A DNA stretch of 21,373 nt from a virus: IMG/VR virus record IMGVR_UViG_3300017917_001017, positions 1-21,373 of that record, one strand, 5' to 3'. The notes under the pieces are model-generated. The model ran no database searches. It worked only from the letters and a program-made list of their open reading frames with translations, and was not told the DNA's origin. Numbering within the stretch: the stretch's first letter is position 1; each line of letters starts with the position of its first letter. Shown here piece after piece: positions 1-10,782 of this stretch. The position numbers and the translations under genes are program-made.

Positions 1-659
1 ATTACTGAATCAGATTCAATAGCAACATAATAATTCAAGTCGCCTTTTGTAGCTGAGAATTTAGATATTTTTTTATTATCTACTGATACTTTATAATCAG
101 TAATTACCATTTTTAAATTCTCTACTTTTATATTTACTTTGAACTCTGAAGAAACAGTTCCTAGATCTAGAATAAAGTTATTCGCAGTTGCATTTTTCTT
201 ATCTCCGACAACAACTGACAATTTACCTTTCGCACCAATAATAGCGATATCTGGCGATCTTAATATTCCAGCAGTTTTAATAATCATCTCTAATTGAGAT
301 GCACTAATATTAAAAGATATATCTTCGTTTACTGGCAAACTATCTTTAGATGGAACTGCAAGCATTTCTGGAGCAGCAGCAAAAAATTTAATTTTTTGAT
401 TGCCTTTCTCAATAGTGCAGTATTTTTCTGAAAAATTTACTTCAGGATCTTCAAATAGTGTATATGCTGATAAAAAATCATTTAATTCATATATACCGAA
501 TGAACCATCAATCGGAAGTGTTTCAGCTATCTTGGCAGATGCCATCACATTTTTCTGCGCAGAAATAGTTGATATTCTATTTCCTTGTTTCAAAAGTAAG
601 TTTGAATTGATTCCAGCAAAGTTTTTTAGTACTGCTAGAGTTTCTTTACTTATTTTCAT
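1..659 (-). CDS. 45: Sliding clamp gp45 (3' end cut by window edge)
   Basis: DNA polymerase processivity clamp of the T4 gp45 / PCNA-fold family. In T4 it is a trimeric ring that tethers the replicase and also couples gp55-RNA polymerase to replication for late transcription. The reading frame starts at ATG 659 (MKISKETLAVLKNFAGINSN) and stays open to base 1. The N-terminus matches the T4 pattern MKLSKDT.ALLKNFA.INS, and the last visible residues, NYYVAIESDS, match T4 NYVVALEADS, so only a few codons are missing. A good ribosome site, GGGAGAAAA, lies just before the ATG, inside the 3' end of the overlapping DUF3310 gene (14-base overlap), suggesting translational coupling. No separate promoter is visible next to it. 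Identity is confident from N- and C-terminal similarity recalled from the T4 sequence. Confidence 0.93.
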   Translation of the reverse strand, partial: MKISKETLAVLKNFAGINSNLLLKQGNRISTISAQKNVMASAKIAETLPIDGSFGIYELNDFLSAYTLFEDPEVNFSEKYCTIEKGNQKIKFFAAAPEMLAVPSKDSLPVNEDISFNISASQLEMIIKTAGILRSPDIAIIGAKGKLSVVVGDKKNATANNFILDLGTVSSEFKVNIKVENLKMVITDYKVSVDNKKISKFSATKGDLNYYVAIESDSV

Positions 660-933
660 TTTTTCTCCCATTATTTAAGTTAGCATCATGCACCGATAAT
701 GCAATCAATGCATAGTGTAAGACCTTTAAAAGATCTTTACGATTATGTCCATCTTTTATTCCATACCTTTGACAGTATTTCAAAACATTGCCTAGAGCGA
801 ACCCCATGCCATGCCCACAATCAATGATGAACTCTGTTGATTGAAACTTGTTTTTAGAATAGTGACCTTTATATGTTGAGTCAACATATTCTTTTAATTC
901 TTTAATTAACTTATCTTCATTAAACTTATACAT
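646..933 (-). CDS. DUF3310-family small protein
   Basis: A 95-residue cytoplasmic protein. Residues 45-80 carry the DUF3310 (SaV-like) pattern: a hydrophobic segment, then ALGNVLKYCQRYG, a short charged loop, and DLLKVLHYALIAL. Proteins of this family are widespread in phages and are often labelled nucleotide-kinase-like, but no biochemical role is established to my knowledge. The ATG at 933 lies only 7 bases downstream of a perfect TATAAT, so the mRNA is predicted to be leaderless, and no Shine-Dalgarno is present. The gene is the first of a unit with gp45, whose start it overlaps by 14 bases; this suggests early expression and a role linked to replication or nucleotide supply, which is inference. 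Confidence 0.75.
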   Translation of the reverse strand: MYKFNEDKLIKELKEYVDSTYKGHYSKNKFQSTEFIIDCGHGMGFALGNVLKYCQRYGIKDGHNRKDLLKVLHYALIALSVHDANLNNGRKNENK

Positions 934-1019: not shown

Positions 1020-1412
1020 TTAAGATACTTGTACTCTTGTATTTACGTTAATTCCATTTGAAGCAAGATCTGAAAAGAACTTCTTATCATCTTCAGAATC
1101 TACTGCTTTTGTTGGCATTGCCGACAAAGTATTTTTCAGATTGCTTAACTGTGCAGACTTAATAACTGTCTCTTTATTCAATCCTTTAGCAGGAAAGAAA
1201 TAAACTCCTGGACGAATTTTATTAGTCTTGAATAACCAATTCGGATAACCAATTCTTGCACTGTCAGCTTTACGATTTTTTAGTAATTGCATGTGTGCAT
1301 AATAACAGTCTTTGCCTGTAATTACACCAGTTTTTGCAAGATTTGGCAGTACAGTTAGCACTGCGTCCACCCATCTTTTTTGGGCTGGACTTGCGGTATC
1401 AAACGTGATCAT
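1020..1412 (-). CDS. Conserved phage protein of unknown function, downstream of CobS-like gene
   Basis: A 130-residue protein (MITFDTASPAQKRWVDAVLT...) that I cannot assign to a named family. The visible composition is a soluble, mildly basic globular protein: an N-terminal helix with the SPAQKRWVDAVL segment, a central stretch with PNWLFKTNKIRPGVYFFP, and a polar C-terminus. No signal peptide, membrane segment, or catalytic motif is seen. The start at ATG 1412 is supported by GGAGAAAA directly upstream. It follows the CobS-like ATPase by only 7 bases and ends just before the hairpin terminator, so it is the last gene of that operon and may be an adaptor or substrate for the ATPase (inference). 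Confidence 0.7.
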   Translation of the reverse strand: MITFDTASPAQKRWVDAVLTVLPNLAKTGVITGKDCYYAHMQLLKNRKADSARIGYPNWLFKTNKIRPGVYFFPAKGLNKETVIKSAQLSNLKNTLSAMPTKAVDSEDDKKFFSDLASNGINVNTRVQVS

Positions 1413-1419
1413 TTTTCTC

Positions 1420-2580
1420 CTATACGTTTACTGTTGTTACATTTTCTGCAGAAGTTTCTGCAGTCACCTTTGCGACAGAAGTATCTTCACCAGAAGACAC
1501 TTTGTCATAAAGATCATTAAATGCTAATCTTGTAGCATCATCAAATCTATTAGTACATAATTCAATAGATTTTTTAATATCTTTGAATACTGAGAATGCT
1601 CTCACTATATGTACTAATCTTCTAGTAGTAATCGTTTCGTCAACACCACCAGAGTCAAATGTTTTACGAATGACATCAGCCCACTTAACTAACGTCTCAG
1701 CAAACTTATCATTCTTACATTTATATGCATTCATTAAATTTTTAACGATTTTAATTTCAATAGATGCAGTTGGATATGCTTGATTAAATGTTACAGCAAA
1801 TCTTTCAAGGAATGCTTCATTCAACACATTAGTACCAATATATCTGCCATCTTCTGAACCCTTACCTTTAGTGTTCGCAGTAGCAAATATGTTAAATCCT
1901 TTTTGTGGAATTATTATTTCATTTTTTAATTTAAAGTAGAATGGCTTACCCTCTAAGATCGGTTGTAAACACAATAAAGTGTTCGCAGCACCAGCATCAA
2001 TCTCATCTAATAAAAGAGGAATACCCAATCTCATCGCAATCACGATCGGTCCTTCAACAATATCAATATTTCCATTTACAAGAGTTTTAGAACCGATCAG
2101 CTGATCTTCGTCAGTCATCGTATTCAAATTAATTCTAATTAATGGAATTTTATGCTTTGCGCAAATTTGTTCAATCGATGTCGATTTACCATTACCTGTC
2201 GGTCCAGAAATAAATGTTGGATAAAACGACTTAGATGTAATGATAGTTTCCAAATCTTTGTAGTTACCAAATGGAACATAATTCTCATCTCTCACAGGAA
2301 TTAAAGATCTAGGATCTAAATTAATTTCTTCAGATTTTAAATTTTTAGCAACTGAAGATATAGTGCTTGTTACAGCATTCGATACACTTTTAAGAGGAAT
2401 TAAATACGCACCTCTTCCAGTTTTTTGTGCTTTCACCCACTTATAAACTTCAGATTTATTATCAAAATCAGCAGTTTTAAAAACTTTAACGATTTGAGCC
2501 CAAGTGAATTTGCCCTCGTCGCTTTTATAAGATTTATGTAGAGACTCTACAAACTTAGTTATATTCACATCATTCATCAT
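1420..2580 (-). CDS. cobS: CobS-like (MoxR-class) AAA+ ATPase
   Basis: A 386-residue AAA+ ATPase. Visible motifs: Walker A GPTGNGKST at residues 126-134, Walker B LLLDEID at 189-195, sensor 1 ATAN around 233-236, and an arginine finger in NEAFLERF (R260). These are typical of the CobS/MoxR branch. T4-like cyanophages and pelagiphages carry such a gene, usually named cobS after the cobaltochelatase subunit. No CobN-type chelatase subunit is present here, so a metal-insertion role is not supported. The N-terminal ~60 residues (FVESLHKSYKS...) form a separate phage-type domain. Its natural partner is the VWA protein at 3163-5316, because MoxR ATPases work with VWA proteins. It has its own promoter, a near copy of the one before the VWA gene, and a purine-rich AAAAGGAAAA ribosome site. 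Tandem ATGs leave the exact start open by one codon. Confidence 0.9.
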   Translation of the reverse strand: MMNDVNITKFVESLHKSYKSDEGKFTWAQIVKVFKTADFDNKSEVYKWVKAQKTGRGAYLIPLKSVSNAVTSTISSVAKNLKSEEINLDPRSLIPVRDENYVPFGNYKDLETIITSKSFYPTFISGPTGNGKSTSIEQICAKHKIPLIRINLNTMTDEDQLIGSKTLVNGNIDIVEGPIVIAMRLGIPLLLDEIDAGAANTLLCLQPILEGKPFYFKLKNEIIIPQKGFNIFATANTKGKGSEDGRYIGTNVLNEAFLERFAVTFNQAYPTASIEIKIVKNLMNAYKCKNDKFAETLVKWADVIRKTFDSGGVDETITTRRLVHIVRAFSVFKDIKKSIELCTNRFDDATRLAFNDLYDKVSSGEDTSVAKVTAETSAENVTTVNV

Positions 2581-2611
2581 ATATTTTCCTTTTTTTAGTT
2601 ATTATTCATAT

Positions 2612-2645
2612 ATTGTAGCATATTTTATCAAAAAAGTATATACTT
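2612..2645 (-). promoter_or_regulatory. Palindrome-type promoter of the CobS-like gene
   Basis: On the minus strand, the perfect palindrome AAGTATATACTT (2634-2645) supplies a -35 element TATACT (2635-2640); after exactly 17 bases comes TACAAT (2612-2617). The start codon is 31 bases further on, with a purine-rich ribosome site between. The -10, the spacer length and the palindrome are all repeated before the CobT-like gene. Confidence 0.7.
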
Positions 2646-2681
2646 ATGGAAAATAAAAAAGATATATATTTCAATGACTTA
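2632..2681 (-). repeat. 50-bp promoter repeat, copy A
   Basis: This 50-base block matches 5348-5397 at 46 of 50 positions by direct alignment, in the same orientation. It runs on the minus strand from TAAGTCA through TGAAATATATA and TTTTTTATTTTCCA to the palindrome AAGTATATACTTTT. It covers the upstream and -35 region of the promoter and includes the stop codon (TAA, 2679-2681) of the small lipoprotein gene. Confidence 0.92.
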
Positions 2682-2852
2682 CAACTTTTTATTCTCATAA
2701 TCTTCCTTATTTTCGTCATTTTTTGATAAAATTCTGCTTATTTTAGCTGGACTTGTAATTGCATCAGTAACAGTTATGTTATATGATCCAATATTAAAAA
2801 TCACAGGACCAAAACAATTTGATAATAATAAAAATAATAACATATATTTCAT
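2679..2852 (-). CDS. Small predicted lipoprotein (57 aa)
   Basis: A short gene of 57 residues, read from ATG 2852 to TAA 2679. The N-terminus is a lipoprotein signal: MKYM, a leucine-rich core, then the lipobox-like LLSNC with the candidate lipidated cysteine at position 13. The mature part (~45 residues) is polar and ends in a charged tail rich in K, D, E and N. The start overlaps the TGA of the upstream 104-residue gene in the classic ATGA arrangement, which supports translation by coupling. Small phage lipoproteins include Rz1-type outer-membrane spanins, but no paired inner-membrane spanin overlaps it and it lacks proline richness, so I do not assign that role. It lies between the CobT-like and CobS-like genes, hinting at an envelope connection for that module (inference). 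Confidence 0.68.
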   Translation of the reverse strand: MKYMLLFLLLSNCFGPVIFNIGSYNITVTDAITSPAKISRILSKNDENKEDYENKKL

Positions 2853-3163
2853 AGATATGATAAACTGTCTTTATGGGACATTAAAACTTCAACACGATCC
2901 ATTACCCATTTATCATAGATTGGTAAGTTTCTCGTATTTTTGCCATCCCAATTTTTAAACGTTTCATCAAAAAAATTCACTTCTAAAGTTAAGTCTTTTG
3001 AAGATTCTATTTCAAATTTATTTTGTGCGTCGATTAAATTTAATTTCCATTTATCAAATATCGAATCTTCAACTAATGATTGATTTTTAATCCAGTATAA
3101 ATGAGAATGTACCAATATTTTGGCTCTCAATTCTCTAATTAAATCTATTAAAATTTGACTCAT
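2849..3163 (-). CDS. Small conserved phage protein between CobT-like and lipoprotein genes
   Basis: A 104-residue soluble protein. It has a helical N-terminus (MSQILIDLIRELRAK), a tyrosine/tryptophan element (LYWIKNQSLVEDSIFDKW, residues 22-39) and a C-terminal LPIYDKWV (80-87). The middle motif faintly resembles the Ia domain at the start of NAD-dependent DNA ligases (a Y, then D..FD pattern), but there is no adenylation lysine motif, so no ligase activity is implied. The start ATG shares a base with the CobT-like stop (TAATG), and its stop overlaps the lipoprotein start (ATGA). The three genes therefore form one translationally coupled unit. Function unknown. Confidence 0.8.
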   Translation of the reverse strand: MSQILIDLIRELRAKILVHSHLYWIKNQSLVEDSIFDKWKLNLIDAQNKFEIESSKDLTLEVNFFDETFKNWDGKNTRNLPIYDKWVMDRVEVLMSHKDSLSYL

Positions 3164-5316
3164 TATGCAACCTTTGCAGCAAATTTATTTAATAAAACTC
3201 TACTTGTTCTATTTGTTTTTAACATTGAAGTGAAAGACTTAGCAATTTGGTGATTAGTTTTTGCTTTACCAGATGCTATTGCTTGTTCAACTGTTATAGT
3301 TTCCATTTTCATTTTAGATAATGGAACGATATAATATTCATCAAAAGAACCAAAATTTTTCAATACAGAACAACCTTGTTCTTTAAAATCTTTTTTAATT
3401 TCTAAAGACATTTCATTAGATTCTTGGTCAGTCATTGGCACACCAGTAACATTATGCATAAATCTAGATATTCCTCTTAGAGAGTTATTACTTACTAGAT
3501 TAAAAGATAATGTTACTAATCCTGGATTAGAATCTTTTAATAAAGATAATAAATTAGTTGTTTGGTTTCCTTGAGCATCACTATAATGACTTGTCATATA
3601 ATATTTTTTATTATTATGAGTTAAAAATAATTTATTAGTTTTCATTGTACATGTCGTAGTGTCGTAAGTAGATGAAGTATAATTAAAAGGTTGAATTGAA
3701 TGTCCTTCGCCATCAGTTAGTGTAATTAGAGTCATTTTTTCAGCTTTAAAAGAATTTCTAAATTTAGGAAGATAGTCAATCATATAATATAAAGATTCAT
3801 TTAATGGTGTACTTGCTAAATTATAATTTGGAACCCATTGATATGGTTTTGCCATTAAAAGAGAAACCATATTATATAATTCTTTTTTATTCATTTTAGA
3901 AGTAAATAATTCAACTAGATTAAACCATCCTAATTCAAATTTTGACCAGTCTGGTGTTGTTCCTAATTGTTCTCTTTTTTTCTCTTTTAATTCTTTAAAT
4001 TTTCTATGTTCTTCTGTATTGTCGGTTCCATTTGTAAATGCTAATACTTGAAATGGAATATTTACTTGATGACAAAACAGTACTAGAATAACTGTTTGTT
4101 TAATTACATCATCAAGACAAGCACTCATAGAACCAGACCAATCTACTAACATTATCATTCCATGTTGTTTGCCTTTTGGCAATACTTCTATAGATTTAAA
4201 TAATTCATCTTTAATTTTATATGCATATAATTTTTTAATATCAATTTGACCTGTTTTATGCGATTTTGTTTTATAATATGCATTTGCTGCTTTTTTCATT
4301 TCAAATTCTTTAACAAGATAATTTACTTCTTTTTTACAATCAGCTAAAAACTTTTTACTAGCAGATTCACCTTGTGATAATTTATCTCTAATATATTGTG
4401 ATGAGTTATATGGATTGTTTGGATCTTTTAATGTAGAAGTAACATAAGAATTTACTTCTTTAATAAAATCTTTATATGAAATAACTGGATTGTATTTTAA
4501 CGACTCAGTAGTGTATGGAATGTTAATGTAATTAGTATTAACATTAGCACGATCACGCAATTTAGAATCTAAAGATTTTTGAGTATTAGGTAACATGTCG
4601 TCTTCATTTTTAGAAGGATCATGTTCAAGTGATGAAGAACCATCACTTTCAATTCCTGATTCAATATCTTCAGTCAATGAAGCAATTAAAGCATCCTGTT
4701 TAGCATCATCACTATCTTCTTCTGAACCATATTGAGCAGTTAATAATTCTATTGCTTTTTGTTTTTTAACTCTTTGAATTTTAGCAAAGGTTATAATCTC
4801 ATTTGCAAGTTTATAAACGTCATCTAAAGTTTTACATCTATCAACAGCATGTACATATTTTAATTCTTCGTTTGTAAATTTTACACCACAGTTATAACCA
4901 GCTTTATAGTATAAATTAATTCTATCAATTAAATTAAGTTTAGATAAATCTTTACCTTTAATTCCAAAAAAATCTTTATCTTGTAATTCTTTGTATGCAG
5001 ATAAAAAGGTTTTTTTCAGTCCAGGATATTCTTTTTGAATACCTTTCTCAATACGAACATCTTCAATCACATTCATATATGAATGAAGAGTAACATCATC
5101 ACCAATTTTTTTAGTATATTTTCCTGAAGTATAAAGAGCATGACCAACCTCGTGACCGATTAACATCTCTTCTACGATCGGAGATAAATCTTTCCATGTT
5201 GGTAATGTTAATGTGCGAGATTCAATATCAAAAGATGCAGTAAATCCAGAACCACGAACGATATTAATATCTTCTTTAGCGAGTAGTTTAGCAATTAAAT
5301 CTTTATAATTCATCAT
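3163..5316 (-). CDS. CobT-like protein: zincin-type HExxH motif plus VWA domain
   Basis: A 717-residue protein with two recognisable parts. N-terminal: HEVGHALYTSG (HExxH at residues 55-59) followed by MNVIEDVRIEKG (E85), the arrangement of a zincin-like metallopeptidase and also of CobT-family proteins. C-terminal: a von Willebrand A domain with an apparently complete metal-binding MIDAS, DWSGS at 392-396, T503 in ASTPLNES and D535 in LTDGEG. An acidic, low-complexity linker (about 198-245, rich in D, E and S) joins them, as in CobT. Phage copies are often called peptidase. Pairing with the CobS-like ATPase 0.6 kb downstream suggests a MoxR-VWA remodelling machine rather than cobalt chelation, as no CobN is seen. 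It has its own promoter with a predicted leader of only about 5 bases and no Shine-Dalgarno. Tandem ATGs (5316, 5313). Confidence 0.88.
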   Translation of the reverse strand: MMNYKDLIAKLLAKEDINIVRGSGFTASFDIESRTLTLPTWKDLSPIVEEMLIGHEVGHALYTSGKYTKKIGDDVTLHSYMNVIEDVRIEKGIQKEYPGLKKTFLSAYKELQDKDFFGIKGKDLSKLNLIDRINLYYKAGYNCGVKFTNEELKYVHAVDRCKTLDDVYKLANEIITFAKIQRVKKQKAIELLTAQYGSEEDSDDAKQDALIASLTEDIESGIESDGSSSLEHDPSKNEDDMLPNTQKSLDSKLRDRANVNTNYINIPYTTESLKYNPVISYKDFIKEVNSYVTSTLKDPNNPYNSSQYIRDKLSQGESASKKFLADCKKEVNYLVKEFEMKKAANAYYKTKSHKTGQIDIKKLYAYKIKDELFKSIEVLPKGKQHGMIMLVDWSGSMSACLDDVIKQTVILVLFCHQVNIPFQVLAFTNGTDNTEEHRKFKELKEKKREQLGTTPDWSKFELGWFNLVELFTSKMNKKELYNMVSLLMAKPYQWVPNYNLASTPLNESLYYMIDYLPKFRNSFKAEKMTLITLTDGEGHSIQPFNYTSSTYDTTTCTMKTNKLFLTHNNKKYYMTSHYSDAQGNQTTNLLSLLKDSNPGLVTLSFNLVSNNSLRGISRFMHNVTGVPMTDQESNEMSLEIKKDFKEQGCSVLKNFGSFDEYYIVPLSKMKMETITVEQAIASGKAKTNHQIAKSFTSMLKTNRTSRVLLNKFAAKVA

Positions 5317-5816: not shown

Positions 5817-6599
5817 CTATTCAGCTTTTATTATTGGTCTTAAACGTCCTTCTCCTGTATAGTTTTTTTCTGTTACCATTTTACGAATTTGTCTATCCAT
5901 TCGTTTTAAAGCCAAATCTAATTTAAGTTTTCCAACTCTTTGAGTGAAATCTATTCCTAACATATGATCGTATTCATGTTGAAAAACTCTTGCTACATAT
6001 CCGTTATATTGTGTTATAACCTCTTCATTTTTAAAAGTTCTATATTTAACTTTAATTGATTCAGGTCTCGTAATTTTTAACCAAAGTCCTGGACGAGAAA
6101 GACATCCTTCTTCCATCATTGAAGTTTCTACTGATGATTCTATAATTTCTGGATTAAATACTGCAAAGTGATGATTTTCTACAACTGTAAGAACAAATAC
6201 TTTAGCATCTACTCCTATTTGATTTGCTGATAAACCAGCACCACCAAGTTCTCTTGAAATTTTAATTAATAAAATTCCTAGTTGTGCTGCTTCTTCAACA
6301 GTCTTCTTTTCAAAATCCCATAATGAACAAGGTTTCTTTAAAAGTGGGTGGTTCCAATGTATCAATCCACCTTTAGTTTGAATGGGAGAAATTACATTTT
6401 TACCATCGCTCGTTTGAATAATATCAACAGGAACTTCTATTGGTTTTTGTTTTTCTGGAGTTGGGGTTGGAGTTGGTGTTTCAATTTTAGTAACTCTTTT
6501 ATCAAAACTTTCTTCAACTATTGGCAATTTTCTTTTTGGTGCAATGGGATTACCATTCTCATCAACTTCATTCCATTGTGCTTCTATGATATCGCTCAT
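5817..6599 (-). CDS. pdf: Peptide deformylase with long N-terminal extension
   Basis: A 260-residue protein whose residues ~80-245 are a peptide deformylase, the metalloenzyme that removes the formyl group from new protein N-termini. All three signature motifs are intact: GAGLSANQ (120-127), EGCLS (164-168; C166 is a metal ligand) and QHEYDH (207-212; H208 and H212 ligands, E209 catalytic). Phage deformylases are usually near the minimal catalytic size. Here about 80 extra N-terminal residues precede the domain, including a TPTPTPTP linker (41-48). Its start overlaps the preceding gene in ATGA fashion, placing it in the gp46 unit. Marine T4-like phages carry pdf, thought to keep host or phage proteins maturing during infection. 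No membrane or signal segment. Confidence 0.95.
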   Translation of the reverse strand: MSDIIEAQWNEVDENGNPIAPKRKLPIVEESFDKRVTKIETPTPTPTPEKQKPIEVPVDIIQTSDGKNVISPIQTKGGLIHWNHPLLKKPCSLWDFEKKTVEEAAQLGILLIKISRELGGAGLSANQIGVDAKVFVLTVVENHHFAVFNPEIIESSVETSMMEEGCLSRPGLWLKITRPESIKVKYRTFKNEEVITQYNGYVARVFQHEYDHMLGIDFTQRVGKLKLDLALKRMDRQIRKMVTEKNYTGEGRLRPIIKAE

Positions 6600-6836: not shown

Positions 6837-8549
6837 TTATACGTTTACAATTGTAGAGAAGTCATTTTTCTTCTCGAATTTAATAGTACCTTGAAATTTT
6901 TCAATCAAAGTATCGCCTTTATGGCTAATTACAAATACGTTGACTTGAGAATCCATTTGAGAGATTAAGTTTAAGAAATAATCAGTCCCAGCTGAATCTA
7001 ATGATGAGTCAAATATTTCATCAAGTATCAATAAACTTGTATTAATACTATTCTTCATTTTCGCAATCTGTCGCCATGTAAACAAAATCGCCAAGTCTAT
7101 ACGCATTTTTTCACCCTCTGAAAAACTGTCATAAGTAAATTCATCTCTGTGTCTTGAACGTATAGTCTCGTTGAAGTTCTCATCTAATTCAAAATGGACG
7201 AAAAAATCCATTGCTTGTAAATATTTATTAATTAGTTTATTCATTACTGGTAAATACTTTCGAATAATTGCAGTTTTAACACCAGTATCTTGTAGTAATA
7301 TTTTAGAAGCACTTTCTATCTCTGATTGTTTAAGTAATTCAGTTCTCGCATTTACTTGTTCTAATGCATTTTTAGCAAGTTCTTTTAATTTTTCTTTCTG
7401 TTTTTCTACACTATTATCTGATGTAGAAATAGAATTTTTTTCTTCTAATAAATCATCAATTGAGGTTTGGATTAAACTAATGCTTGAAGTATAATTAGAT
7501 ACTTCGCTCGTACACTCGTTTATTTTAATATTTGTTCTTTTAATTTCTTTCAATTTCTCACCAATAGCAGCAAATGCTTCAACTATTTTATGAGCACGAA
7601 GTTCTATATCAGCACGATCTTTAGAAAGTTTATTAATTGCGTTTTCTTTTGCTGCTATTAATTGGTCGCACGTTGGACAAGTATCATTATTTTCAAAAAA
7701 TTCTATTTTTTCATTTAATTGCTCTACTTTACTCTCATTTTTCGCGATTAATGATTTTGCTTTTTCAAATCTATCATATACTACATCTTCTTCTTCAATA
7801 GATTTCTTATATTCGCTAATTCGATTATTACAATCAATAATTTGTTTTTTAATTGATTCTATTTGCTCATTATATTTGAGTATTTTATTATCTATTTTTT
7901 CTACAGTCTCTGTTTTAGTTACTGAAAGATTATCTATAATTGCTTGTTGTGCGTTTGCTGCAGCACGAGCAATCTCAATATTTTTATTTGCTTCGCTTAA
8001 TGATTCTTTGGTTTCAAACATCTTAGCTTTAAGAACTTCATTCATCTTACTGAATATTCCTATATCTAAAATATCTTCAATAACTAATCTACGATGATAA
8101 GGAATTAATTGCATAAATGGAACATAAGAAGCAGATCCGAGTATGCACACTTGACAAAAAGTTCTGTAATTAATCTTTAAAATTTGTTCTTCAATAATTT
8201 TTTGATAATCGCTTACAGCTGCAGTTTGATTTTGTAATACGTCATTCTCGTAAAAAGCAAATTTGTTTGGCTTAATTGAACGATATATTCTATAAGAAAT
8301 TGTTCCTGAAGTAAATTCTATTTCTACTTCTGCGTTTTTACCATTAATTGTATTTACTAATTGTGCTTTTTTAACTTGACGAAATGGTTCACCAAATAAA
8401 GCGAATGTGAGTGCGTCAAGTATTGTAGATTTACCATCTCCATTTTTACCAATAATTAATGTTGTACGGAAACGATCTAGTTGAACTTCGTTCCAAACAT
8501 TACCAGTAGATAAAAAATTACGCCATTTTAATTTACGAAAAACTATCAT
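6837..8549 (-). CDS. 46: Recombination endonuclease subunit gp46 (Rad50/SbcC-like ATPase)
   Basis: A 570-residue SMC-type ATPase that, with gp47, forms the T4 counterpart of Mre11-Rad50. The complex resects DNA ends for recombination-dependent replication and host DNA breakdown. Visible: Walker A GKNGDGKST (34-42), two coiled-coil arms flanking a zinc hook CPTC (291-294), ABC signature FSEGE (476-480), Walker B LLILDEIFD (506-514) and H-loop ISHK (541-544). Length fits T4 gp46. It lies downstream of gp47, separated by about 40 bases that hold its own promoter. No Shine-Dalgarno precedes the ATG, and the predicted leader is only about 4 bases, so it is close to leaderless. Confidence 0.96.
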   Translation of the reverse strand: MIVFRKLKWRNFLSTGNVWNEVQLDRFRTTLIIGKNGDGKSTILDALTFALFGEPFRQVKKAQLVNTINGKNAEVEIEFTSGTISYRIYRSIKPNKFAFYENDVLQNQTAAVSDYQKIIEEQILKINYRTFCQVCILGSASYVPFMQLIPYHRRLVIEDILDIGIFSKMNEVLKAKMFETKESLSEANKNIEIARAAANAQQAIIDNLSVTKTETVEKIDNKILKYNEQIESIKKQIIDCNNRISEYKKSIEEEDVVYDRFEKAKSLIAKNESKVEQLNEKIEFFENNDTCPTCDQLIAAKENAINKLSKDRADIELRAHKIVEAFAAIGEKLKEIKRTNIKINECTSEVSNYTSSISLIQTSIDDLLEEKNSISTSDNSVEKQKEKLKELAKNALEQVNARTELLKQSEIESASKILLQDTGVKTAIIRKYLPVMNKLINKYLQAMDFFVHFELDENFNETIRSRHRDEFTYDSFSEGEKMRIDLAILFTWRQIAKMKNSINTSLLILDEIFDSSLDSAGTDYFLNLISQMDSQVNVFVISHKGDTLIEKFQGTIKFEKKNDFSTIVNV

Positions 8550-8589: not shown

Positions 8590-9651
8590 TTATTCTTTTG
8601 CAGTATTGTCAGTTGAGATCGCTTCAACATGCAAAGATTTTAAAAATGATTTGAGTTTTGGTTTATCAATTACTGTTTCGATTGACTCAATATATGTGTC
8701 AAGAATGCTTAGAGTATCTTCAATATGTACTTCGTCATTTATATCGCCAGATGAAAGATCTGCAAAAGTTTCCAAGATTTTAACATCATATGGATCTGAG
8801 TTATAAACCTTTTTAATAAACGTGTCAAATTTATAAAGATCTTTTTTATTCAAAATAAGAATTTTAATATATTTGTGCTTACAAACACTAAAATCAAAAG
8901 GGTTGTGTTCAAAATAAGATTCATCATACTCAATTTTATAAAACATTGTGTATGGGTTATATATGAATTCAAGTTCACGAGTATTTGTATCAAAAATGTG
9001 GAATCCTCTTCGATCTGCATAATCCATCCATGTTAATTCATATGGATTACCAAGATAATATATATTATCACCTTTTGAACGATGATGGTAGTGACCTGTA
9101 AATACTTTATCAAATTTTTTAAATGTAGAAACTGGTAAACCATTTACACTTTTAGTTCCACCGACATGCATTAAGAATCCTTGTATTTCAAAATGACCCA
9201 TACAAATTTCAGCTGTTGTCGTGTTCATTTCATTAATGCACTGAGTAAAATTATCAGCACACAACCAAGGAACCATACAAATCTTTAAACCATCTAATGT
9301 GATAGTAGTTGGGTCTGGTAAGAATTTTATATTTTTATATTCGTTAAGGAGTAGCGAAATAGAATTAAGATCGTTGGTATTACGATAGTAAGTATCGTGA
9401 TTACCAGCAATCATGTAGGTAGTATAATTTTTTATTTTATCGAAAAAGAATTTACGACTTTGCGCAAGAGTTGCGTAGTTGATATATTTACGACGATCAA
9501 ACACATCTCCTAGATGTAAGATAGTGTCTATTTTATATTCTTCACATTTAGGAAAAAATATATTATCAAAAAATCTTTCTTGAGCATCTAAAAAATGAGA
9601 AACATCATTACGTGCTCCAAAATGCGTATCAGTTATAATTGCTATCTTCAT
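8590..9651 (-). CDS. 47: Recombination endonuclease subunit gp47 (Mre11/SbcD-like nuclease)
   Basis: A 353-residue calcineurin-type phosphoesterase, the nuclease partner of gp46. The metal-binding motifs appear in order: DTHFGARND near the N-terminus, HLGDVFDRR, AGNHD, GHFEIQG, and GHYHHR. All key Asp, His and Asn residues are intact. I chose ATG 9651 (MKIAIITDTHFG), which fits family N-termini and has AGGA about 11 bases upstream. The frame also extends three codons to a TTG at 9660, too close to that ribosome site to be likely. The start overlaps the 3' end of gp55 by 23 bases, so gp55 and gp47 are cotranscribed from the leaderless promoter before gp55. Confidence 0.95.
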   Translation of the reverse strand: MKIAIITDTHFGARNDVSHFLDAQERFFDNIFFPKCEEYKIDTILHLGDVFDRRKYINYATLAQSRKFFFDKIKNYTTYMIAGNHDTYYRNTNDLNSISLLLNEYKNIKFLPDPTTITLDGLKICMVPWLCADNFTQCINEMNTTTAEICMGHFEIQGFLMHVGGTKSVNGLPVSTFKKFDKVFTGHYHHRSKGDNIYYLGNPYELTWMDYADRRGFHIFDTNTRELEFIYNPYTMFYKIEYDESYFEHNPFDFSVCKHKYIKILILNKKDLYKFDTFIKKVYNSDPYDVKILETFADLSSGDINDEVHIEDTLSILDTYIESIETVIDKPKLKSFLKSLHVEAISTDNTAKE

Positions 9652-10198
9652 TATCTTCAAATCCTATCTGTTCAATATTTTTTTTCATTTTACGAGCAAC
9701 CTTACGTTTTTCTAACCAATCATCGAAATTACGATTTTTCTTCATAAATTCTACGAATGCTTCTAGGTTGTTAGTTTCATTATTCTCATCAAGTACTGCA
9801 AATAATTCAGGAGGAAGATTGAGTATTAATTTATTTTTGATATAGGATTGTTTTTTCTCTCTCATAATTCTTCTTAAGAATGCAAAGTAAATTATTTGAG
9901 TAAAATAAGAAAACGGATTGCTTGATTTTTTAGGATCAAAGTTATGTATATATTGAATACAGTTTTCAATACCATCAAGAATCATATCATCACGATATGT
10001 GTAGTTACTAAAATTCGGTTTAAGTGATAGACGAGTTGCTATCTTAAGAATGCAGTCGCCGACATACTCGGGAACTTTTGGTTTATCTTCGCCACTATTT
10101 TCTGCATCTTCGCATTCAGCTTTCCATACTATAAGTGCAGATAAAAGATCGGCATTATTTACATAATGCTCTTTAGATTTTGGTTTAGTAGATTTCAT
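9629..10198 (-). CDS. 55: Late-transcription sigma factor gp55
   Basis: A 189-residue divergent sigma factor. In T4, gp55 directs host RNA polymerase to TATAAATA late promoters and is activated by the gp45 clamp. The N-terminus (EHYVNNADLLSALIVWKAE) matches T4 gp55 (YVNNKELLQAIIDWK). The core DGIENCIQYIHNFDPKKSSNPFSYFTQ matches the sigma region 2 segment (DGIE.SIKGLHNFD...NP.AYITQ); the motif is split here only for reading. Its ATG is 6 bases from a TATAAT, predicting a leaderless message, and gp47 overlaps its end. Matching late boxes occur before gp22 and gp23 in this window, so regulator and targets are both present. Confidence 0.93.
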   Translation of the reverse strand: MKSTKPKSKEHYVNNADLLSALIVWKAECEDAENSGEDKPKVPEYVGDCILKIATRLSLKPNFSNYTYRDDMILDGIENCIQYIHNFDPKKSSNPFSYFTQIIYFAFLRRIMREKKQSYIKNKLILNLPPELFAVLDENNETNNLEAFVEFMKKNRNFDDWLEKRKVARKMKKNIEQIGFEDNEDSNYN

Positions 10199-10290: not shown

Positions 10291-10782
10291 TTAATGCAGT
10301 TTATCGTTTCTTGTCTTTTTTAATTTATTTAAAACATCTGATAAACGATCTTGCATTTCTTCGTTTATACTCTCATCATCCCACTCTTCGTCATCTTCTG
10401 CCATCAGAGTAGTTGGTGGATTAGTTTCTACTTCTGTCTTGCGAATCGTTTCATCGAAATAAAGAAGTTCTCTCTCATGTTGTTCATAAAGAGATATATA
10501 AAATGGTATTGCAACTGAATGAAGTTTCTTCGCAAAAAGTAAATGATTCTTCTTAAAGGTGAATACACGATTCTCTGCAAAACTGCAAAAAGGACCAGCA
10601 GTAACTGATTCAACTATATTACCAGTTCTTAATATTCTCGGATAATTCTTAACTATAAATGGAAATTCTACTGTTATCTCTTCAGAGGTTTCAGAAAGTT
10701 TGATTGCCAGTAACACTTCGCCTGAAGTAAGTTTGAGAATGGTAAAGTTTTCATTGGTCGATAGTGGTCTTGGTGTCTGCAT
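10291..10782 (-). CDS. Conserved phage protein after uvsW, possible Sm-like beta barrel
   Basis: A 163-residue protein. Residues ~12-100 look like alternating beta strands (FTILKLTSGEVLLAIKL..., ITVEFPFIVKNYP, NRVFTFKKNHLLFA), reminiscent of small Sm/LSm-type barrels often seen in T4-like marine phages. This is a pattern impression, not a firm assignment. The C-terminal third is acidic and probably flexible (AEDDEEWDDESINEEMQ), ending in a basic helix. The start lies 32 bases inside the end of uvsW, with GAGG about 8 bases upstream of the ATG, so it is translated from the uvsY-uvsW message. Between UvsW and gp55, it could serve recombination or late transcription; no evidence fixes this. Confidence 0.72.
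   Translation of the reverse strand: MQTPRPLSTNENFTILKLTSGEVLLAIKLSETSEEITVEFPFIVKNYPRILRTGNIVESVTAGPFCSFAENRVFTFKKNHLLFAKKLHSVAIPFYISLYEQHERELLYFDETIRKTEVETNPPTTLMAEDDEEWDDESINEEMQDRLSDVLNKLKKTRNDKLH

Follow-up and report, generated by a model that had tools for sequence, protein, structure and literature searches.

A CobS/CobT-like gene pair resembling MoxR-VWA remodelling machines in the replication and recombination module of a T4-like phage

The window studied here, meaning the whole stretch of DNA analysed, comprises 21,373 nucleotides of a viral record (IMGVR_UViG_3300017917_001017); the virus is one of aquatic bacteria. Genes for a CobS-like AAA+ ATPase and a 717-aa HExxH/VWA protein were found inside the replication/recombination module of a T4-like phage, flanked by gp46/47/55 on one side and by the clamp gp45 on the other. 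The order gp46-VWA-ATPase-gp45 is conserved across relatives. The open reading frames of the original prediction were recovered at the same positions; the surrounding T4-type replication/recombination operon had been overlooked there. T4-type modules also hold passengers (peptide deformylase, 2OG oxygenases), and gene neighborhood is association. The following features were identified:

3..671, minus strand: gp45 sliding clamp, conserved downstream neighbor, running off the record (phrog_223, 2.5e-63)
1020..1412, minus strand: 130-aa protein, the ATPase N-terminal domain as a separate protein, followed by a conserved C-terminal helix, ED..FF..L..NGI (35-member alignment)
1420..2580, minus strand: predicted CobS-like (MoxR-clade) AAA+ ATPase, 386 aa (phrog_249, 1e-103; AAA_5, 3.5e-13)
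2632..2653, minus strand: promoter-region repeat TTTTCCANAAGTATATACTTTT before the ATPase gene, second copy of a 22-mer
2679..2852, minus strand: predicted lipoprotein, 57 aa (MKYMLLFLLLSNCFG...), overlapping the stop codon of the 104-aa gene and kept in near relatives
2849..3163, minus strand: 104-aa protein consisting of an Ia domain of NAD+-dependent DNA ligase on its own (PF22745, 2.7e-14; phrog_6466, 1.7e-14; LigA alignment)
3163..5316, minus strand: VWA protein, 717 aa (phrog_459, 3.7e-159), a "peptidase" in phrog_459 and "CobT" in phage papers
5348..5369, minus strand: promoter-region repeat TTTTCCANAAGTATATACTTTT before the VWA gene, the other of the two copies (0 in shuffles)
6837..8549, minus strand: gp46, SbcC-like recombination nuclease subunit, conserved upstream neighbor (phrog_77, 5.3e-149)
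8590..9660, minus strand: gp47, SbcD-like nuclease subunit (phrog_100, 3.7e-102)

The VWA protein is organized as an N-terminal HExxH domain, a charged linker, and a C-terminal VWA/MIDAS domain, and its extreme C-terminus (SRVLLNKF..xVA) is conserved. The HExxH motif, E85, and full MIDAS named in the original prediction stood up to comparison, all of these residues being invariant in 58 phage relatives. The HExxH-(x25)-E arrangement in the window protein has the HExxH and downstream Glu ligand expected of a gluzincin-like zinc metallopeptidase. In the AF2 model (pLDDT 82, pTM 0.70), the nine top structural matches were all VWA domains of AAA+ partners, with MDN1/Rea1-MIDAS (Z 15.0-13.4) and NorD VWA (Z 14.4-12.8) the best. 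Zincins did not appear among the PDB matches, in a search dominated by the VWA domain that hardly covered the N-terminal part. In the ATPase, the catalytic motifs proved complete, as had been predicted, and vary little or not at all among 43 relatives from Walker A to the sensor-2 region; they comprise Walker B D192/E193, sensor 1 N236, Arg finger R260, and R320/R321 of the sensor-2 region. Sites within the two proteins are:

2179..2205, minus strand: Walker A GPTGNGKST, ATPase residues 126-134 (G126, G129, N130, G131, K132 invariant in 43)
2371..2580, minus strand: ATPase N-terminal domain, residues about 1-70, homologous to the 130-aa protein
3712-3714, minus strand: MIDAS residue D535
3808-3810, minus strand: MIDAS residue T503
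4129..4143, minus strand: MIDAS motif DWSGS, residues 392-396 (D392-x-S394-x-S396)
5062..5064, minus strand: E85 of NVIEDVRIE, presumed third metal ligand (N82, E85, D86, R88, I89 invariant in 58)
5140..5154, minus strand: HEVGH, residues 55-59, predicted zinc site (H55-E56-V-G-H59)

Against the PDB, the ATPase matched CobS (1.4e-26), CbbQ (1.7e-12), and NorQ (5e-5). Together with the AAA_5 match and the invariant motifs, this indicates that it is a member of the MoxR clade. Midasin (Rea1/MDN1) was rejected as its nearest relative: single Midasin domains reached at most about 68 bits vs 128 for CobS, and the Midasin E-value (2.3e-73) beats that of CobS because six AAA domains are summed. Midasin has a similar AAA+ core, and no structure matched the VWA model better than its MIDAS domain (see above), but its six AAA domains lie in a single chain of 4,700 residues. 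With an intact MIDAS in the adjacent VWA partner, the sequence hallmarks of a MoxR AAA+/VWA pair are present.

The two families are not new. The "CobS/CobT" of T4-like cyanophages, pelagiphages, and haloarchaeal viruses (phrog_249/phrog_459; PMC8651126) are the same families, with the same gene order and operon position in HTVC008M, S-PM2, and Mosig. A chelatase function is assigned there and disputed here. It has been proposed that these viral cobaltochelatase subunits hijack host CobN and raise cobalamin synthesis in infection (PMC8651126). The pair is named cobST in the literature, and cobS/cobT are counted as auxiliary metabolic genes in cyano- and pelagimyophages. CobS is indeed the best single-domain PDB match of the ATPase, and the VWA protein shows distant profile similarity to CobT (hhalign 2.3e-6 around MIDAS). 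However, the ATPase scored 93 bits with the CobS equivalog TIGR01650, far under its cut-off (558.55 bits). No Pfam family was matched by the window VWA protein at E 0.1, and the CobT families PF06213 and PF11775 were listed for none of the 58 relatives at E 0.01. The HExxH...NxxEDxRI[ED] signature is invariant in phage VWA proteins (58/58) and absent from genuine CobT (0/27). In the same paper, cobT is said to be "mistakenly annotated as a peptidase" (PMC8651126), a remark that overlooks this invariant, putatively metal-binding HExxH...NxxED site. No CobN was detected in the window (its genome is a fragment) or in any of 26 phage records, comprising 20 IMG/VR relatives and six complete cultured phages. 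A B12-independent class I ribonucleotide reductase was present in 12 of 13 relatives, and the pair sits inside recombination modules; both count against a chelatase. The SAR11 hosts of pelagimyophages, moreover, are not known to produce B12. We therefore consider the chelatase unlikely and agree with the original prediction that the pair, whose VWA domain is closest to those of AAA+ partners, is better described as a MoxR-VWA machine.

It had also been suggested that five genes, with shared promoter repeats and a dedicated terminator, form a self-contained accessory system in which the 104-aa protein and the lipoprotein are true subunits. The repeats are real; they exist in two copies only, before the VWA and ATPase genes, and a 12-bp palindrome AAGTATATACTT within the copy before the ATPase gene recurs in relatives. 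The terminator was not borne out: the candidate has a 5-bp stem at 1008-996, and a scan gave 2 sites vs 1.7 expected by chance. The stop and start codons do overlap (the 104-aa gene with the VWA stop; the lipoprotein frame with the 104-aa stop, as ATGA), so the coupling was correctly noted, and both small genes are kept in near relatives. The five genes do not, however, travel together. The constant core is VWA plus ATPase, and the ATPase follows the VWA gene in 69/69 testable loci. Hundreds of records of T4-like cyanophages and pelagiphages contain the pair. The original prediction had named two findings that would refute it, and neither was made: CobN was not detected, as noted above, and the ATPase did not frequently occur alone, the two genes being together wherever there was room to see (69/69 and 34/35). 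ATPase relatives without a recognized VWA neighbor are only about 26% identical and occur in Twort-like and Listeria phages. At that identity the Staphylococcus/Listeria phage ATPases, whose downstream 281-aa proteins were read and not recognized as VWA, belong to another family and were rejected as pair-less members. The 130-aa protein is frequent (about half of loci); the Ia gene was found in 6/50 VWA-seeded loci with room, and the lipoprotein gene is confined to the clade of the window. A five-gene complex is thus highly improbable, the more so as the Ia protein belongs to a different family.

The ligase Ia identity of the 104-aa protein had escaped the original prediction. The NMN-contact residues of LigA we take to be Tyr22, His23, Asp32, Tyr35, and Asp36 (E. 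coli numbering); in all eight Ia proteins His23 is replaced by Trp/Tyr and Tyr35 by Phe/Trp, while Tyr22 is kept and Asp36 partly kept. The protein is probably degenerate and is an accessory in a subset of phages. A split LigA was rejected, the adenylation domain PF01653 being found in 0/23 records (several are fragments). The lipobox reads LSNC in the window and canonical LSGC in near relatives.

The relationship of the 130-aa protein had likewise been overlooked. By profile comparison with the ATPase N-terminal domain (hhalign E 2.3e-10, probability 97%; reciprocal single-pass HMM matches) it is a paralog of that domain. Its AF2 model (pLDDT 85) has the order H-E-H-H-E-E, which fits a winged helix. 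Foldseek returned nothing significant, and VIA-align gave weak winged-helix rows only (best MCM8 WH, Z 4.1). Its C-terminal helix was rejected as a tag common to other phage proteins, a second carrier being absent in a 160-kb relative.

Relatives of the pair were also detected outside T4-like modules. In Pseudomonas phage ZY21 it adjoins ligase/primase/Pol III and in Vibrio phage JPW a primase. The HExxH form of the pair was found in 1,242 plasmid records, 992 of them predicted conjugative. A CobS-like/DUF3150/VWA cassette of SXT-like elements and IncC-type plasmids contains a homologous ATPase (HMM 3e-38) and an HExxH-VWA protein (hhalign 9e-22). It differs from the phage locus in that no 130-aa protein was seen, in its operon with Exo, Bet/RecT, and SSB, and in the C-terminal aromatic tags of its partner proteins; such tags were looked for in the window and were absent. 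On plasmids the HExxH-VWA relatives lie in SSB-Bet/RecT-Exo operons (lambda-type exonuclease) of conjugative plasmids, and in chromosomal elements with a YqaJ-type exonuclease; in a third, divergent plasmid, SSB and a PD-(D/E)XK nuclease are near the pair. In the accessible literature, SXT with cobS/bet/exo was mentioned only in passing. The target, left open by the original prediction, can be narrowed: the pair is embedded in recombination/replication modules of both phages and conjugative plasmids. Nevertheless, the 104-aa Ia protein implies that replication-flavored neighbors may be unrelated.

C-termini of the ATPases were compared in 45 non-redundant relatives. In 18/45 the protein ends in PF, in 15 of them as acidic-[IVLA]PF; the background count is 0/999. 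These ends resemble the SSB C-terminal tail, in which a flexible linker is followed by an acidic-Ile/Val-Pro-Phe end (DE[IV]PF in relatives). The tail is absent from the window ATPase, which ends in VTTVNV, and from those of S-PM2 and HTVC008M. Alternatively, this ending might be a peptide that binds the sliding clamp.

Because of its neighbors, the intact metalloprotease-like site, and the relatives on conjugative plasmids, we suggest that the pair works as a remodelling machine of the MoxR-clade AAA+/VWA type, devoted to the phage DNA replication/recombination apparatus, and not a cobalt chelatase (probability roughly 0.6). By analogy with CobS, NorQ, and CbbQ, six ATPase subunits would assemble into a ring, on which the VWA protein would dock via a conserved C-terminal helix and finger, like NorD on NorQ. 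The MIDAS metal, presumably held by the conserved residues, may bind an acidic residue of the client; ATP-driven motion would then twist the VWA domain and remodel or release the client. Gene context and plasmid relatives point to a nuclease/replication complex encoded nearby as the probable client, e.g., gp46/47 or clamp-bound complexes. With its intact zincin-like site, the N-terminal HExxH domain may also cut or metal-clamp the client. The ATPase N-terminal domain, of which the 130-aa protein is a second copy, might bring the machine to replication sites, as might the SSB-like ATPase tail of many relatives.

NorQ/NorD and CbbQ/CbbO likewise combine a MoxR-clade ATPase with a VWA/MIDAS partner. 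They differ in having other N-terminal domains and a respiratory enzyme or Rubisco as client; the accessible part of the NorD description contains no HExxH site, unlike the window VWA protein. Metal insertion by NorQ/NorD homologs, as reported in PMC13036017, raises the possibility of a chaperone like NorQD or CoxDE that loads a phage metalloenzyme, such as NrdB, the di-metal subunit of class I ribonucleotide reductase, or gp47 at its Mn site. Of 13 relatives, 12 have NrdB, and gp47 is a neighbor of the pair. T4, to our knowledge, has NrdB and gp47 without the pair, which also means that gp46/47 and gp45 in general do not need it. On plasmids the pair adjoins exonuclease and annealing proteins, and NrdB was not seen beside it there; we give metal loading little weight. 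A similarly low probability is given to an ATP-fueled metalloprotease, in which the AAA+ ring would deliver host or phage regulators to the HExxH domain for cleavage. The HExxH and N..ED residues are invariant in the 58 phage proteins and in all 16 aligned plasmid/ICE-type proteins (partly chosen on the motif), which favors proteolysis; yet known MoxR-VWA pairs remodel and do not degrade, the PDB search noted above gave no zincin, and CobT works without the HExxH site, so the HExxH domain may be structural. MoxR-vWA ternary conflict systems (PMC7159879) share the MoxR plus vWA co-chaperone logic, but their VMAP, iSTAND, and effector modules were not seen at the phage pair. A defense system was rejected, no PADLOC family rising above noise.

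Returning to the replication/recombination machine, we tentatively extend it, at somewhat less than even odds, to phage and conjugative-plasmid "CobS/CobT" as one widespread, unrecognized MoxR-VWA class with an intact metallopeptidase-like domain. This class would service DNA recombination/replication complexes and dock via SSB-like C-terminal tails, carried by the ATPase in many T4-like phages and, in plasmids, by Bet, Exo, and DUF3150. Cellular CobT would then represent a lineage of the same family whose metal site was lost on joining cobaltochelatase. The pair is already known as "phage CobST"; its reading as a recombination/replication chaperone appears to be new, and none of the accessible papers was found to bring together MoxR, phage, von Willebrand, and CobS. 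Virus ecology routinely lists the pair among vitamin-B12 auxiliary metabolic genes. Should it be a recombination/replication chaperone, such counts would be wrong, and a conserved step of mobile-element DNA metabolism would be opened to direct tests.

The window (21,373 bases, 31% G+C) is an incomplete viral genome with a T4-type gene content, and its main genes are all carried on the minus strand. The order of transcription includes gp21, gp22, gp23, gp19, UvsY, a UvsW-like helicase, gp55, gp47, gp46, peptide deformylase, the ATPase/VWA module, a phrog_480 protein, and gp45. Among its relatives are cyanophages as well as two pelagiphages, HTVC008M and Mosig, both of which are filed, with S-PM2, under Kyanoviridae. 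The peptide deformylase (5817-6599), encoded in the same operon region as the module, has about 80 extra N-terminal residues; it was found too in pelagiphage and Ochrobactrum phage modules. A 163-aa protein encoded beside UvsW (10291-10782) weakly matches phrog_471 ("methylamine utilization"), an annotation also seen at the equivalent place in S-PM2 and Mosig. The five genes of the module were confirmed at the positions originally predicted.

Genes of the ATPase/VWA module in the window
3163-5316, minus strand, VWA protein (717 aa)
2849-3163, minus strand, 104-aa protein
2679-2852, minus strand, lipoprotein ORF
1420-2580, minus strand, CobS-like AAA+ ATPase (386 aa)
1020-1412, minus strand, 130-aa protein

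The motifs had also been predicted correctly. The ATPase has its full set of motifs, with little or no variation across 43 relatives, and the same holds for the complete MIDAS of the VWA protein (DWSGS, residues 392-396) across 58 relatives. HExxH (HEVGH, 55-59) and E85 are invariant in 58/58 of these relatives, which were retrieved by peptide patterns lacking HExxH; the predicted metal site may have a catalytic role or a structural one. A promoter-region repeat was recovered as a 22-mer in two exact copies (none in shuffles); the proposed dedicated terminator did not rise above chance level.

The original prediction described a five-gene set. Co-occurrence across the fetched loci revealed a pair with extras instead. 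The ATPase gene lies downstream of the VWA gene in 69/69 VWA-seeded loci with room, usually within 40-130 bases, and records in cultured cyanophages are equal for the two genes (365 Synechococcus, 61 cyanophage, and 24 Prochlorococcus each). The 130-aa gene was present in 28 and the 104-aa gene in 6 of the 50 VWA-seeded loci with room, while loci seeded with the 130-aa gene contained the ATPase in 56/56 and the VWA gene in 34/35. Only phages closely related to the window were seen to encode the lipoprotein. The 104-aa protein is the Ia domain of NAD+-dependent DNA ligase, here encoded on its own; its NMN-contact positions are altered, and no partner adenylation domain was detected in the records of 23 relatives. 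Some of the phages (the window, L085, L102, L021, and L035) have such a gene directly behind that of the VWA protein. The 130-aa protein is a separately encoded paralogue of the N-terminal domain of the ATPase (profile-profile E 2.3e-10), and single-pass HMMs of the ATPase N-terminus and 130-aa families match each other (18/43 and 29/35). In the predicted model of the 130-aa protein the elements follow a winged-helix-like order, yet structural matches were weak.

It has been proposed that viral CobST hijacks host CobN (PMC8651126). That the phage proteins are viral chelatase subunits acting with host CobN appears improbable here. The ATPase, with 93 bits, stays far below the CobS cut-off (558), the VWA protein passes no CobT model, and its profile contacts genuine CobT only around the MIDAS. 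The pattern HExxH...NxxEDxRI[ED] occurs in 58/58 phage VWA proteins vs. 0/27 alphaproteobacterial CobT, where the second motif (NxxEDxRI[ED]) is only partly kept. A search for CobN gave nothing in 20 relatives, several of them 130-174 kb long, or in 6 complete cultured phages, all being phage rather than host genomes. A gene for the small subunit of a class I, B12-independent ribonucleotide reductase is present in 12 of 13 relatives. Based on the CobS score, the CobT models, the HExxH contrast, the lack of CobN in the phages, and the reductase, the conclusion that the pair is not a cobaltochelatase is well supported. HExxH is absent from all 27 cellular CobT (L259-L288), which may represent an HExxH-VWA branch that lost its metal site.

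The identification of the pair as a MoxR-VWA machine is likewise well supported (probability about 0.85). In comparisons with the predicted VWA model (pLDDT 82), the nine best rows were MDN1/Rea1-MIDAS and NorD VWA domains (Z 15.0-12.8), with unrelated VWA domains below, from Z 11.8 down. NorQD has a VWA finger inside the ATPase pore, docking of the VWA C-terminus on the ring, and metal insertion driven by VWA domain rotation (PMC13036017). The phage VWA proteins are strongly conserved at their C-terminus, which would fit NorD-type docking on the ATPase ring. Twort-like Staphylococcus and Listeria phages encode a distant CobS-like ATPase and then a 281-aa protein (L154:5707-7682, L158:5740-7588), in which no VWA domain was recognised.

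The HExxH domain has its closest bacterial relatives (hhalign 9e-22) in mobile-element recombination modules, not cobalamin operons. Many Gammaproteobacteria, Shewanella among them, have the gene order YqaJ-type exonuclease, CobS-like ATPase, WGR-like protein, DUF3150, VWA, RadC, and primase, which we take to be an SXT-like arrangement (the last two names are likewise presumed). Motif conservation in 16 ICE-type VWA proteins is not independent, these having been found partly by the ED.RI motif and filtered on HExxH. A related VWA protein occurs in 1,242 plasmid records, 992 of them predicted conjugative. An IncC and an Enterobacter plasmid carry the ATPase/VWA genes beside SSB, Bet or RecT, a lambda-type exonuclease, and DUF3150; a Xanthomonas plasmid has them beside SSB, a PD-(D/E)XK nuclease, and DUF3150. 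The pair adjoins ligase, primase, and Pol III in unrelated phages. Phage and plasmid pairs agree in a context of DNA recombination/replication.

In a non-redundant set of 45 phage ATPases, a PF ending is present in 18, of which 15 have the form acidic-[IVLA]PF (DEIPF, DEVPF, and similar); 0/999 other ORFs of the same loci end in this way. The terminal motif is retained after a divergent proline-rich linker, a layout equivalent to that of bacterial SSB (ending in DDDIPF). The 130-aa gene accompanies 17 of the 18.

Examples of phage ATPases with an SSB-type tail (DEIPF/DEVPF)
L006:12218-13360
L007:4754-5926
L056:12313-13485

The tail is absent from the ATPase of the window and its near relatives, and is therefore evidence on the family, not on this copy. 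In plasmid/ICE cassettes, the exonuclease, Bet, WGR-like, and DUF3150 proteins often carry an aromatic C-terminal tag (SSFYF, SQNYYF, PNSFYF; DFWF), which is not on the ATPase or VWA protein; [FYW]F endings have a background of 16/1,947. IncC tags are EDHFF (hypothetical protein), GSYY (Bet), ETFYW (Exo), and DYFF (DUF3150). The tag is element-specific and common to non-homologous neighbours of the pair (L202, L188, L192, L195, L201, L213, L237; plasmids L298 and L299), and was not found on one divergent plasmid (L300). Because gene context and C-terminal tails point there in the family, we favour a role in which the pair would act on recombination/replication complexes as its putative client.
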